Source: Natronobacterium gregoryi SP2 (lineage in GTDB: Archaea > Halobacteriota > Halobacteria > Halobacteriales > Natrialbaceae). Taken from it: a DNA stretch of 64,000 nt. Both the position numbers and the translations under genes were made by a program. Under the pieces are notes generated by a model. It made no database searches. It was not told where the DNA came from and saw only the letters and a list, made by a program, of their open reading frames with translations. The stretch lies in contig NC_019792.1 in the NCBI RefSeq assembly GCF_000230715.2, positions 3,162,001-3,226,000 of the forward strand, read 5' to 3'. Positions 7,319 to 14,644 of the stretch are shown piece by piece (positions within the stretch are counted from its first letter, which is position 1; the number at the start of each line of letters is the position of its first letter).

Positions 7319-7864
7319 TTACTTCGTCGCTTCCTCGAGCACCAGCGTGTCGTCCTCGAGGTAGTGTTCGAAGTGGTGGGCGTCTTCCTCGAGTTCGACG
7401 AGGATCTCGCGGAGGAGTTCGGCCGTAGCGTAGTCACCGAGGTTGTCCGCGAGTTCGATGCTCCCACGCATCGACTCGATGATGTCGCCGTACATCTCGA
7501 GGTCGTTTTCGAGCATCGTTCGAACGTCGTAGACGTCCTCGCCCTCGAACTCGACGGTCGCGCGCTGCTCTTGGTTCGTCGGGCCGGAAACGGGGACGCC
7601 GCCGAGCGCCTGGGCGCGTTCGGCAACGACGTCTGCACCCTCTTCGACGTGCTCGTAGGCCTCCTCGAGGAACTCGTGCAGCGGCAGGAACTCGGCACCC
7701 TCGACTACCCAGTGGTGTTTCTTGAGCTGGTGGTACAGCACGTACGAGTTCGCCAGTTCCGTGTTCAGCGCGTCGACGATCTGTTCGGCTTTCTCTTGGT
7801 CGAGACGAAGGTCGTTGTCCTCGACAGTGTCTGCTGACTGGCGGACGGTCTGCTGTTTACTCAT
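7319..7864 (-). CDS. dpsA: Dps-type ferritin DpsA
   Basis: This 181-residue four-helix ferritin-like protein forms a dodecameric cage that oxidises and stores iron and protects DNA. The di-iron site residues of the family are visible in LYHQLKKHHWVVEG and LHEFLEEAYEHVEEGADVVAERAQALGG, with the typical Dps spacing. The acidic C-terminal helix ends HHFEHYLEDDTLVLEE. The ATG is at 7862-7864, with a TATA-like CTTTAAGT about 27-34 bp upstream on the reverse strand, so the leader is very short. An iron-box-like site lies 1.2 kb away before another gene, so a shared iron theme is possible but unproven. Confidence 0.95.
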   Translation of the reverse strand: MSKQQTVRQSADTVEDNDLRLDQEKAEQIVDALNTELANSYVLYHQLKKHHWVVEGAEFLPLHEFLEEAYEHVEEGADVVAERAQALGGVPVSGPTNQEQRATVEFEGEDVYDVRTMLENDLEMYGDIIESMRGSIELADNLGDYATAELLREILVELEEDAHHFEHYLEDDTLVLEEATK

Positions 7865-9977: not shown

Positions 9978-10074
9978 GCCGTCCGACACGACGGGTGTCG
10001 TCGAACGACATGCGTTTCGCTCGAGTAGCTACCACTCCGGACTCTTAGTAATGTCGAATACACAGTTAGGTCTT

Positions 10075-10118
10075 GTTAATAATATCGTTAGATTCATTAC
10101 TAACTCTCCGCAAGGGGG
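10075..10118 (+). promoter_or_regulatory. Inverted repeat and Shine-Dalgarno before the His-rich lipoprotein
   Basis: GTTAATAAT (10075-10083) and ATTACTAAC (10096-10104) form a 9-bp inverted repeat with one mismatch and a 12-base spacer in AT-rich DNA. A purine-rich AAGGGGGTG follows and is spaced as a ribosome binding site for the ATG at 10127. Related GTTAnTAAC words recur in the promoter of the next gene, which suggests a shared metalloregulator. Confidence 0.45.
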
Positions 10119-10126
10119 TGTTACAG

Positions 10127-11077
10127 ATGACTGACGCACCACATTCGACGTCCCGCCGAACGCTACTCGCGACGACCGGTTCGCTGACTGCACTCGGTGT
10201 CGCCGGTTGTCTCGGCGACGACGGTGACGGCGACGACCACGGCGATGAGCACGACGACGATGACGATCACGACGACGACCACGATCACGACGACGACCCC
10301 GATCACGGCGACGTCTACGACGAGATCGGCATCGAAGAGTTCGAAGTACTCGACCGCGACCACGAAGAGGACATCCTCGTCTACGTTCACGGCGATCACT
10401 GGCACGACGACCCGCTCGAGGTACCCCACGACGACAACCTCTCGCTCGGTGCCTACGTCGAAGACGAGGAGGGTGACGAGGTCGAACTCGGTGACGAACT
10501 CGAACTGACTGGCGAAGTCGTCGAGGGAGCAAACGAGATCGTCGAGATCGAGTCCCACGGCGATCACATCCACGTCCACGGCGAGGAAGACGGCTTCACG
10601 GACGTCGTCTTCCAACTCGTCGAGGACGGCGACGTCGTCTACGAGACGCCCGAACTCGAGACGGAGGTCGGCCACCACGACGACGGTCACGATCACGGCC
10701 ACGTCGAGGTCGAGGATCTCGAGATCGTCGATCGGTCGGACGACGAAGTCGTCGCGGACGTCCACGACGACCACTGGCACGGCGAACTGCCACATATTCA
10801 CGTCGATGACAACGTCTCGCTGGGTGCGGTGTTCACCGACGATCACGGCGACGAGATCCCGATCGGCAGCAACGAGGAGTACGCACTCGCTGTCTCGGTC
10901 GCTGACGACGCCGAAGGAGGTATCGTCGAGATCGATTCCGACGAGCACTGGCACGGCGACCACGTCCACATCTACGGTGAGTCCGAGGGCGAGACGGAAG
11001 TCGTCTTCAAGCTCTGGCACGACGACCACGCCGACTGGGAGAGCCCGCCGATCGAGGTCGAAGTCGAAGACCACTGA
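10127..11077 (+). CDS. His/Asp-rich Tat lipoprotein with two repeated domains, putative metal-binding
   Basis: The 316-residue precursor has a twin-arginine signal (SRRTLL, residues 9-14) and a lipobox ending at Cys28 (LGVAGC), so it should be anchored outside the membrane. Residues 31-62 are almost only Asp, His and Gly. Two homologous domains follow, about 70-181 and 196-314, each with an HWH motif (DHWHDD, DDHWHGELP), a GDE-containing strand, HVHGEEDG or HIYGESEG and a VVF(Q/K)L strand; a His-rich linker (HHDDGHDHGH) joins them. A third copy of the domain is embedded in the neighbouring substrate-binding protein. Its position before an ABC metal uptake operon suggests it gathers Zn, Mn or Ni for the transporter; the metal is inferred. 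Confidence 0.8.
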   Translation: MTDAPHSTSRRTLLATTGSLTALGVAGCLGDDGDGDDHGDEHDDDDDHDDDHDHDDDPDHGDVYDEIGIEEFEVLDRDHEEDILVYVHGDHWHDDPLEVPHDDNLSLGAYVEDEEGDEVELGDELELTGEVVEGANEIVEIESHGDHIHVHGEEDGFTDVVFQLVEDGDVVYETPELETEVGHHDDGHDHGHVEVEDLEIVDRSDDEVVADVHDDHWHGELPHIHVDDNVSLGAVFTDDHGDEIPIGSNEEYALAVSVADDAEGGIVEIDSDEHWHGDHVHIYGESEGETEVVFKLWHDDHADWESPPIEVEVEDH

Positions 11078-11205
11078 TCTACGTCCCCCGTTCGTCTCCA
11101 TCCTCTAGTCGGTCGTCGCACCGGCGCTCGCTCCGTTTCGTTTTCGACCTCGTACTGCGAGAGTCCCGACTGTTACTAACCCGACTCCACCGACTGCCAC
11201 CAGTT

Positions 11206-11262: not shown

Positions 11263-12657
11263 ATGAAACTATCACGCCGTTCGCTGCTCTGCGCGAGCAC
11301 CGGTGCACTCGCGCTGGGGACGGTCGCCGGCTGTCTGAGCGAGCCCGGCGAGGATGGAAGCCCCGGCGAGACAGAGGGGTACGCTGCGTTTTTCACCCTC
11401 TGGGACTGGACGGAAGAGATCGTCGGCGACGAGATAGAGATCACGAACCCGGTCGACGTCGGCGAGATGGGACACGGCTGGGAGCCGCCGGCCGACCTCC
11501 AGCGCAATGTCGCCGGGTCGGATGTCTTCGTCTACCTCGACACGCCCGAGTTCTCCTGGGCCCAGGACATCGCGGACGAGATTGCAGACGAAGATGTCGA
11601 TACGGTGCTAATCGACGCGATGGGCGGTCTCGAGAACCAGCTACTGCCGATGAACGAGGAGACGGAGGCCGACAGGGAGCCTGCCGACGCCGAGTTCGAT
11701 CCCGAGACGGTCTCGATCGGCGACTTCGCCGTCTACGACGGACAGACGGGGGACGAGACTGCAGACTGGCATATCGACCACTGGCACGGAGAACTGCCGG
11801 CGATCCCCGTCGACGGCTCCGCCGCCGTCGAGGGCATCTTCGAGGACGACGAGGGGCGGGTTCTCCCGGTCGGAACAGACGAACAGTTCCAGTTCGACGC
11901 CCGGATCGTCGACGGCGCGAACGAGGATGTCCTCGAAATCGCGTCGGAGGGCGACGAGGTGATCTTCCACGGCGAAGAAACCGGTCGGACCAGGGTCGTC
12001 TTCGAACTCGTCGCCGACGGTGAGGTCGTCTGGGACACGAGCGCCGACAACGTGACCGCCGAAGTCGTCGAGGAACTCGGAGACGATGCCGCACCGGATT
12101 TCTACGATCCCCACGTTTGGGCCGATCCCGTCCTGGCCCAGCGGATGGTCGAGACGATCGCCGACGGACTCGGCGAGGCGGACCCGGACAACGCTGAACT
12201 GTACGCAGCCAACGCTGCAGACTACGTCGAGCGACTCGAGGACGTTCACGACCAGTTCGAACAGCTCGCGGCGGACGCCGAGCGCGACGTAGCGGTCCTC
12301 GCGGGCCACGACGCGTTCCAGTACCTCGAGAAGCGCTACGACTTCGAGATCCACACGCCGGTCGGGATCTCGCCCGACGCCGCCGAGACCGAGTCGGACA
12401 TCTCTGAGTCGATCTCGGTCGTCGAGGAGCTCGACATCGATACGATTCTCTACGATCCCTTCGAGACACCGGACCCAGACGAGGACATCCCACAGATGGT
12501 CGAATTGCTACTGGAAAACACAGACGCCGACGAGTACGCACCGGTCACCCCCGCCGAGGGGACCACAGCCGAGTGGAACGAACGGGGCTGGGGCTGGATC
12601 GAACAGATGGAAGAGGTTACGATCCCCTCGCTCCGGCAGGCCCTGGGCGCGGAGTAA
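11263..12657 (+). CDS. ZnuA/TroA-family metal-binding lipoprotein of an ABC importer, with inserted domain
   Basis: The 464-residue protein has a Tat lipoprotein signal (SRRSLL, lipobox VAGC, Cys24). Cluster A-I metal-binding features are GHGWEPP (His71), DPHVWADP (His284), the helix with LAGHDAFQYLEKRY and the C-terminal DPFETPD. Between residues about 150 and 269, exactly where ZnuA proteins carry a short His-rich loop, lies a complete domain (HIDHWHGELPAIPVD, VIFHGEETG, VVFELVADG) homologous to the repeats of the preceding lipoprotein. The mature protein presumably delivers Zn or Mn to the permease encoded downstream; the metal cannot be decided from sequence. Confidence 0.9.
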   Translation: MKLSRRSLLCASTGALALGTVAGCLSEPGEDGSPGETEGYAAFFTLWDWTEEIVGDEIEITNPVDVGEMGHGWEPPADLQRNVAGSDVFVYLDTPEFSWAQDIADEIADEDVDTVLIDAMGGLENQLLPMNEETEADREPADAEFDPETVSIGDFAVYDGQTGDETADWHIDHWHGELPAIPVDGSAAVEGIFEDDEGRVLPVGTDEQFQFDARIVDGANEDVLEIASEGDEVIFHGEETGRTRVVFELVADGEVVWDTSADNVTAEVVEELGDDAAPDFYDPHVWADPVLAQRMVETIADGLGEADPDNAELYAANAADYVERLEDVHDQFEQLAADAERDVAVLAGHDAFQYLEKRYDFEIHTPVGISPDAAETESDISESISVVEELDIDTILYDPFETPDPDEDIPQMVELLLENTDADEYAPVTPAEGTTAEWNERGWGWIEQMEEVTIPSLRQALGAE

Positions 12658-12711: not shown

Positions 12712-13452
12712 GTGACATCGGTCGTCGACGTTCGAAACGTCTCGTTTGCCTACGGAGACTCGCTGGCCCTCGAGGAGGTGACTCTCACCGTCGAGAACGG
12801 TGATTTTCTCGGACTCATCGGGCCGAACGGCTCCGGGAAGACGACGCTGTTGCACGTCATGCTCGGACTGCTCTCTCCCGACAGCGGCTCCGTCCGGCTG
12901 TTCGACCAGCCGATCGAGGAGTTCGAGGCCGGCGAACGGATCGGGTACGTCTCACAGAAGGCGACCGACCGCGGTGGGACGATGCCCGTCACCGTCCGCG
13001 AGTGCGTCCTGATGGGGCGGTTCGCCCACGTCGGACACGGCCGGCTGAACGACGAAGACCACGAGACCGTGGCTGACGCACTCGAGACGGTCGGCATCGC
13101 CGACCTCGCTGACCAGCAGATGAACCAGCTCTCTGGCGGCCAGCGCCAGCGCGCTTACATCGCGCGTGCACTCGCCTCCGAGGCCGACCTGCTCGCGCTG
13201 GACGAACCGACCGTCGGCGTCGACGCCGAGTCCCGCGACGAATTCTACCGGTTGCTCGACTCGCTGAATCGGTCGGGGATCACGATCATCCTGATCGAAC
13301 ACGACATCGGCGTCGTCACCGATCGGGCCAACCGGATCGCGTGTATCAACACGGAACTGTACCACCACGGCGACACGGAGTCGTTCGTCGAGAGCGAGGC
13401 CCTGAGCGAAGCCTACGGAAAGACTGGCGAGATCGTCCACCACCACCACTGA
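12712..13452 (+). CDS. Metal ABC transporter ATP-binding protein (ZnuC-like)
   Basis: The 246-residue ATPase has Walker A GPNGSGKTT, Q-loop (YVSQK), signature LSGGQRQR, Walker B LLALDEPT and the switch His in LIEHDIG. It energises uptake by the adjoining permease at the cytoplasmic face. Translation starts with a GTG at 12712, with an AAGGAG sequence about 12 bp upstream. It ends in a natural His run (VHHHH), in keeping with the His-rich tails and loops of the other proteins of the locus. The permease gene begins 1 bp after the stop. Confidence 0.93.
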   Translation: MTSVVDVRNVSFAYGDSLALEEVTLTVENGDFLGLIGPNGSGKTTLLHVMLGLLSPDSGSVRLFDQPIEEFEAGERIGYVSQKATDRGGTMPVTVRECVLMGRFAHVGHGRLNDEDHETVADALETVGIADLADQQMNQLSGGQRQRAYIARALASEADLLALDEPTVGVDAESRDEFYRLLDSLNRSGITIILIEHDIGVVTDRANRIACINTELYHHGDTESFVESEALSEAYGKTGEIVHHHH

Positions 13453-13453
13453 G

Positions 13454-14644
13454 ATGACGGGAAGCAAAGATCACGACCACGACCACGACGACGAGAGCAG
13501 CGATACGCACGAAACCGCTGCAGTCGACGGCGGCACTGCCGCCTACGGTGGGCCGACGATCCGCTCGAGGCCGTCACATCTCCGCCGAAATATCGAACTC
13601 ATCGGGGTCGCACTCGTCGGCGTCCTTGCAGCCGCGATGATCGGCTTCATCGCCCTCGATTGGCTCCGACGGTACCCGGGTGCGGACGCGTTCGGTCCGC
13701 TCGAGGCAGTTTACTCGGCGACCGGAATCGATCCCGCGGCTGGCTACCTGTTCGACCAGTTTCTGATCGCGGGAGAGTGGATCGACCACTTCCTGGGAAC
13801 GGAAGTCTTCCAGTACGCGTTCATGTGGCGCAACATCGCGACCGGCGTCCTCGTCGGCGTCGTCGCGCCGCTCGTGGGAACGTATCTCGTCCACCGACAG
13901 ATGGCGTTGATCGGCGAAACCCTGGCCCACACCGCGTTCGCGGGCGTCGCGGTCGGCCTGCTGTTCGTCGCCGTCACCGGTTGGCAGGGATCGTTGCTGT
14001 ACGTCGCACTCGTCGTCAGCGTAATCGGGGCGCTTGGCGTCCAGTGGCTGACCGAACGGACGAACTCCTTTGGCGACGTACCGATCGCGATCATGCTCAC
14101 CGGCAGCTTTGCGGTCGGAACGTTGCTGATCAGTTGGGGACGCGGATTCATGTCCATTGGCGTCGACATCGAGGAGTTTCTCTTCGGGAGCCTCTCGGTC
14201 GTCTCGGCGAGCGGTTCGCGACTGATGGCAGCCCTAACCGTCGGAGTCGTCGCCATCGTCGCCGTCACGTACAAACAGTTGCTGTTCATCACCTTCGACG
14301 AACAGGCCGCCCGCGTCGCCCGACTCAACGTCTCGGCATACAACACGCTGCTCGTGGTGATGACGGCAGTCGTCGTCGTCGGCGCGATGCAGGTGCTCGG
14401 CGTCATCCTCGTCGCCGGCATGCTCGTGATCCCCGTCGCGGCGGCCTCACAGATCGCCCACAGCTTTCGGGAGACGCTGTTCCTCTCGATCCTCTTCGGA
14501 CAGCTGTCTATCCTCGGTGGGTACACGTTCGCGCTGACACAGAGCCTTCCGTCCGGTGGCTCGATCATCGTCGTCGCTATCGGAATCTACCTGGCAGCGA
14601 TCGCCGTCTCCGATCGCTCCGGAGCGGCAATCTCGCTCCACTGA
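13454..14644 (+). CDS. Metal ABC transporter permease (ZnuB-like)
   Basis: The 396-residue protein belongs to the ABC-3 permease family, with about eight or nine membrane segments and the coupling-helix region containing GETLAHTAFAGVAVG. The first 25 residues are hydrophilic and His/Asp-rich (DHDHDHDDESSDTHE), probably a cytoplasmic metal-sequestering tail, and the N-terminal portion is longer than in bacterial ZnuB. It lies 1 bp after the ATPase gene, so the two are surely co-translated. With the lipoproteins upstream it forms a complete binding-protein-dependent importer. Confidence 0.92.
   Translation: MTGSKDHDHDHDDESSDTHETAAVDGGTAAYGGPTIRSRPSHLRRNIELIGVALVGVLAAAMIGFIALDWLRRYPGADAFGPLEAVYSATGIDPAAGYLFDQFLIAGEWIDHFLGTEVFQYAFMWRNIATGVLVGVVAPLVGTYLVHRQMALIGETLAHTAFAGVAVGLLFVAVTGWQGSLLYVALVVSVIGALGVQWLTERTNSFGDVPIAIMLTGSFAVGTLLISWGRGFMSIGVDIEEFLFGSLSVVSASGSRLMAALTVGVVAIVAVTYKQLLFITFDEQAARVARLNVSAYNTLLVVMTAVVVVGAMQVLGVILVAGMLVIPVAAASQIAHSFRETLFLSILFGQLSILGGYTFALTQSLPSGGSIIVVAIGIYLAAIAVSDRSGAAISLH

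Follow-up and report, generated by a model that had tools for sequence, protein, structure and literature searches.

The window, a 64,000-nucleotide stretch of the Natronobacterium gregoryi SP2 genome (contig NC_019792.1, positions 3,162,001 to 3,226,000), carries four genes on one strand that encode a lipoprotein, a substrate-binding protein (SBP), an ABC-type ATPase and a permease. The SBP contains one copy of an extracytoplasmic module (copy A), and the lipoprotein contains two (copies B and C). Coordinates are listed in Table 1. An open reading frame about 2 kb upstream of this metal operon (7319-7864, minus strand) resembles, by eye, a Dps-type ferritin-like protein. A second ZnuA-type SBP, which has no insert, is encoded elsewhere in the genome.

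Table 1. Genes, module copies and candidate regulatory sites at the locus (positions in the window)
Feature	Position	Strand	Evidence or remark
Lipoprotein, Tat/lipobox (SRRTLL...VAGC), with His/Asp-rich linker and two module copies	10127..11077	+	Homologues 5' of the SBP in related genomes
ZnuA/AztC-type cluster A-I metal SBP, lipoprotein (SRRSLL...VAGC)	11263..12657	+	PF01297, E 6e-43
ZnuC/AztA-type ABC ATPase	12712..13452	+	PF00005; AztA is the best NCBIfam match, E 2e-55
ZnuB/AztB-type ABC-3 permease	13454..14644	+	PF00950, E 1.5e-53; AztB, E 5.5e-41
Module copy B (first in lipoprotein)	10322..10678	+	Alignment and HMM
Module copy C (second in lipoprotein), Ig-like beta-sandwich	10700..11074	+	Alignment, HMM, AlphaFold2 pLDDT 93
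Module copy A, at the SBP His-loop position, about 120 residues	11707..12075	+	Alignment, HMM, model
H-x2-H-W-H triad codons of copy A	11770, 11779, 11785	+	
Putative operator 5' of the lipoprotein	10045..10103	+	Three TTANTAA sites, spacing 31 and 21 bp
Operator sites TTAGTAA; TTAATAA; TTACTAA	10045-10051; 10076-10082; 10097-10103	+	
TTACTAA site 5' of the SBP gene	11173..11179	+	Same motif as at the lipoprotein

The SBP is a member of the cluster A-I (ZnuA, PF01297) family, and its Pfam match (147.7 bits against a cut-off of 29) spans both sides of the insert. Phmmer alignments to SBPs in the PDB cover residues ~41-140 and ~273-458 and skip the insert. The latter ends immediately ahead of DPHVW, at the position of the His loop in ZnuA and AdcA. 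In two close relatives that lack the insert (L014 and L015), a plain loop rich in His and Asp occupies this place, which confirms the position given in the preliminary description. All four ligand motifs (GHxWEP, DPHxW, GHD[AS]F and YDPF) are present in the window SBP, and they occur in 57, 49, 53 and 47, respectively, of 60 insert-bearing SBPs. We take the resulting His/His/His/Asp set to resemble that of zinc-binding SBPs, so zinc is favored over manganese. Pfam scans detect no ZinT match in the lipoprotein, the SBP or the module, and the NCBIfam AdcA match on the SBP is limited to its ZnuA part.

The three module copies are 36-38% identical in pairwise alignments that score 19-23 SD over composition-preserving shuffles, so the lipoprotein does carry two homologues of the insert, and shared elements (the H-x2-H-W-H region, GD, HGE and VVF-L-DG) are seen in all three. 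Calling the module His-rich suits the lipoprotein copies, which have 9 and 14 His residues, but not the SBP copy, which has 4 among 122 residues. No Pfam, NCBIfam or PDB sequence matches the module above cut-off, and a sequence search of solved structures gave no credible match. Matches to PB1, Strep_his_triad and PIR1-like domains were considered and are all sub-threshold. The module represents an extracytoplasmic domain family that neither Pfam nor NCBIfam has named.

An AlphaFold2 model of copy C, based on 26 aligned modules, is an all-beta sandwich with mean pLDDT of 93. The SBP model, based on 14 sequences, has an overall pLDDT of 83, with the module mostly near 90, and the strand order of copy A within it is that of copy C. 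Together with the three-copy alignment, these predictions support assigning copies A, B and C to one fold family. By Foldseek and VIA, copy C groups with Ig-like domains of the S-layer, Lig, BIG_2 and filamin type. The best VIA match is an SbsC domain (Z 9.4-9.0, rmsd 2.2-2.6 over 87-89 residues); numerous further Ig-like chains match at Z 6-9. The likeness to BIG_2, SbsC and filamin domains is one of fold alone and implies no family relation; because the Ig-like fold is widespread, it is also uninformative about function.

A profile search of 393 genomes of the archaeal phylum, including 292 of the haloarchaeal class, revealed other carriers of the module. Within the class, it is found in 51 of 292 genomes and 22 of 77 genera; outside the class, matches occur in three genomes of a single methanogen genus. 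The 51 haloarchaeal genomes contain 114 module-bearing ORFs: 58 are SBPs with the insert, 33 are SBP-adjacent proteins (42 modules), 7 are large or nested proteins with a second domain, HAC (12 modules), and 16 are lone copies. One copy (L098) sits in a GLUG-motif protein, where no metal context was seen. After removal of duplicates, the haloarchaeal and methanogen copies comprise 134 distinct modules.

Conservation is strongest at an H-x2-H-W-[H/D/E] triad that lies close to the N-terminus of the module and is present in nearly all 134 copies. Position 22 is His in 126 copies, position 25 is His in 123, and position 27 is His, Asp or Glu in 133; among the SBP copies, positions 22 and 25 are His in 58 of 58. 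Lipoprotein copies usually add a second cluster, H-G-D-H-x-H, whose His residues (positions 81, 84 and 86) are kept in most lipoprotein copies and in all methanogen copies. SBP copies mostly lack this cluster, with His fractions of 0.36, 0.41 and 0.10 at the three positions. The HxxHxH motif of the streptococcal histidine triad is found in 96 of 134 copies, compared with 3% in shuffles.

Insert-bearing SBPs fall into two subfamilies: type-1, the main type, has the DPHVW motif, and type-2 has YDAKFF in its place and has lost one canonical His ligand. Type-2 SBPs (L057, L060, L063, L066, L072, L076, L079, L088, L100, L104 and L110) mostly have long His-rich loops around the module, and an ATPase gene was found nearby in none of the 11 loci. 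Each subfamily has insert-free relatives. A single insertion was considered, but the SBP tree, a quick tree computed without bootstrap, requires at least three changes; with the root among insert-free SBPs, it can be read as two gains and one loss of the insert. Type-2 SBPs and a few of type-1 have kept a His-rich loop, and the module is found next to it or within it. The earlier proposal that the module replaces the loop is therefore apt for the window SBP but not for many relatives, and describes an end state. In a quick tree of the modules, type-1 SBP copies form one clade (SH-aLRT 98) apart from the lipoprotein copies. Hence, the copies that had been described as duplicated in the neighboring gene are homologous, but they belong to separate old clades and do not derive from a recent local duplication.

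The suggestion that the module is mobile fits its evolutionary distribution, which includes two SBP subfamilies, lipoproteins, a nested position within a HAC domain and a place beside a methanogen cobalt transporter. Searches of plasmids and viral contigs revealed no relative, so there is no sign of mobility borne by plasmids or viruses. The HAC domain is a second secreted domain with a His-rich loop of its own (D-x-HAC-x-H ... H-x-x-[YW] ... GYVxFD ... FYTADG). It has no Pfam match and recurs beside these SBPs (L113:4677-13769, L058:3177-8888, L051:3533-9091, L065, L085, L012:5165-5863, L049 and L099). In L109, a module is nested within a HAC domain, and without it two partial HAC matches (56.5 and 57.2 bits) become a single match of 81.6 bits.

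Type-1 SBP genes are usually accompanied by a gene for another module protein. Such a neighbor is found at 33 of 47 type-1 loci, and at 8 more there is a HAC protein, which seems to stand in for the module lipoprotein; the remaining 6 have neither. None of the 11 type-2 loci has a module-bearing neighbor, and no insert-free SBP lies beside a module protein among the loci examined. Of the 38 neighbor pairs, 36 have an upstream partner and 35 a partner on the same strand.

The TTANTAA motif is present in 21 of 35 upstream regions of module lipoproteins and in 39 of 52 upstream regions of SBPs, compared with 1-3 in shuffles, and it is absent upstream of all 10 lone copies examined. The preferred spacing is 21 bp at lipoproteins and 31-32 bp at SBPs. 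The upstream region of the lipoprotein is the sole place in the 3.79-Mb genome where two sites occur 21-32 bp apart; in 12 relatives, such pairs are found at both module loci and at some other places. The natural reading of these upstream sequences is that the lipoprotein and SBP genes are under a common regulator, and the motif points to a haloarchaeal regulator that is not yet characterized. In two genomes (L166 and L167, near 1501), a pair spaced by 21 bp lies between a formyltetrahydrofolate-deformylase-like gene and a gene for an FAD-dependent oxidoreductase, and may mark a further member of the regulon.

Several module proteins are found near metal importers of other types. In the methanogens, a membrane-anchored protein with two modules is encoded directly before CbiM (L131:5085-6107 and L132:5344-6369), after cobalamin-synthesis-type genes and with CbiQ and CbiO further on. 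By its gene context, this protein is possibly a cobalt-capture partner of the ECF transporter. Single-module membrane proteins of these methanogens (L133:5551-6108, L134:5947-7125 and L135:5027-6205) adjoin a molybdopterin oxidoreductase that resembles formate dehydrogenase. A variant module, VHWHG...SHWH, adjoins DUF7350/Iron_transport (PF10634) proteins in L107, L112 and L119, and in L112 it is also near a DUF7405 protein; lone copies in L101, L102, L103, L108 and L114 are like this variant. Perhaps it is an iron or copper version of the module. The cobalt and iron contexts indicate that the module need not be specific for zinc.

Transfer of metal from a scavenger to a cluster A-I SBP is already known, and the view that the arrangement at this locus had no described counterpart does not hold; here, the proposed hand-off would be built on a new domain family. 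Pht proteins bind zinc through an HxxHxH motif, and transfer of zinc from PhtD to AdcAII has been shown by NMR (PMC3842936). The Streptococcus pneumoniae phtD-adcAII operon resembles the present locus in having a surface scavenger with repeated HxxHxH-containing units beside a cluster A-I zinc SBP, but the Pht units are short, three-stranded and of another fold. We know of no Pht unit inside AdcAII. Among 26 modules, one matches Strep_his_triad (PF04270), with 16.3 bits (E 0.0099) against a cut-off of 27.

A hand-off from ZinT to ZnuA or AdcA has also been proposed, with the His-rich loop of the SBP as the contact site in ZnuA (PMC6689063). As in that system, the scavenger domain can be a separate partner or a covalent part of the SBP, but ZinT belongs to another family and in AdcA is fused to the SBP rather than inserted in a loop. 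In AztABCD, a loop of AztC is needed for transfer from the metallochaperone AztD (PMC6689063). The window SBP, ATPase and permease score best with AztC, AztA and AztB, at 87, 187 and 141 bits against equivalog cut-offs of 350, 220 and 280. However, AztD has a beta-propeller fold, and where the window SBP has a domain, a short loop is found in AztC.

In Corynebacterium diphtheriae, the troA-dip0445 operon, which is regulated by Zur and zinc, also encodes surface-anchored proteins (PMC6711530). The SBP model of the actinobacterial anchored-repeat system (TIGR03769-03773), to which this operon belongs, has ~180 extra positions before DPHVW, in profile coordinates, and this insertion is comparable in place and size to that of the window SBP. 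Membership in this family was rejected: TIGR03769 (P_ac_wall_RPT) exceeds its cut-off in none of 59 genomes, its weak matches are not on modules, and TIGR03772 reaches 57.7 bits in the window genome against a cut-off of 350. Because no sequence relation was found, the likeness may be convergent. No paper on the module domain was found in the open-licence literature. As far as this literature was searched, the promoter motif and the domain family are new, as are the presence of the domain in both scavenger and SBP, its insertion at the His loop of archaeal SBPs and its nesting inside another domain that has a His loop.

We consider it probable, at roughly 0.6, that the module plugs into the SBP at its hand-off loop as a metal-binding domain and is fed by a co-regulated scavenger lipoprotein. 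The lipoprotein, with its two modules and His/Asp-rich linker, would capture metal at the cell surface, most likely Zn2+, and pass it to the SBP module, from which it would move to the SBP cleft (His3/Asp) and then to the permease. The SBP module sits at the element that, in ZnuA and AztC, has been linked to the receipt of metal from a partner. What we infer from these data is that metal is bound, that it is zinc and that it moves in this direction. This relay is favored by the homology of the copies, the agreement of two AlphaFold2 models in strand order and the His loop at or around the insertion site; by the conserved triad, the co-occurrence of SBP and lipoprotein and the TTANTAA motif at both genes; and by the metal contexts elsewhere (CbiM/Q/O and PF10634) and the known hand-offs from PhtD to AdcAII and from AztD to AztC. 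Degradation of the triad in some modules of large HAC proteins counts against it, as does the common occurrence of acidic segments rich in His and Asp among haloarchaeal lipoproteins. The loss of the second His cluster in the SBP copy and the six type-1 SBPs without a neighbor imply that the partner is not essential, and given the methanogen cobalt context, zinc may not be the right metal for the module in general.

The presence of the module in both partners could instead reflect docking, in which SBP and lipoprotein copies pair by their Ig-like faces while metal travels through His-rich tails or free solution. An Ig-like fold of the kind found in filamin and S-layer assemblies would suit this role, as would the absence of the second His cluster from SBP copies. 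However, the triad is the best-conserved feature even in SBP copies, and it is kept in lone copies and in type-2 SBPs that have no module-bearing neighbor, which makes docking unlikely. The same unaccompanied SBPs, 6 of type-1 and all 11 of type-2, would be expected if the insert acted by itself in the SBP, as a buffer for metal or a filter for specificity that stores metal or keeps it out when the load is high, and if the lipoprotein were an independent sink or protective surface protein. Indeed, a sensor or buffer role has been discussed for the ZnuA His loop. Yet those module lipoproteins that lie near SBPs adjoin insert-bearing SBPs only, and the two share a promoter motif, so that we regard independent action as improbable. 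Haloarchaeal surface proteins often contain acidic Ig-like domains, and the insert might be a structural spacer or an adaptation to salt in which the His residues are incidental, as the copy in the GLUG-motif protein might suggest. The near-invariance of the triad, the enrichment of HxxHxH over shuffles and the recurrence of metal-importer contexts in several systems make such a role very improbable.

Extending the relay to the other carriers, we tentatively suggest, at somewhat less than even odds, that one mobile Ig-like module is an interchangeable relay part for unrelated archaeal metal importers, set into the receiver at its hand-off loop and present as repeats in the scavenger, with metal passing from copy to copy. 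The importer types would be zinc ABC-transporter SBPs (twice), HAC-type scavengers, cobalt ECF transporters and iron-transport loci.

The module adds a family not named in Pfam or NCBIfam to extracytoplasmic metal trafficking. The SBP loop is implicated in metal hand-off and is poorly understood, and these SBPs provide a natural experiment in which it is a flexible His stretch, a His stretch with the module inside, or the module alone. Because scavenger and SBP share the module, the question of transfer becomes directly testable with short soluble proteins.
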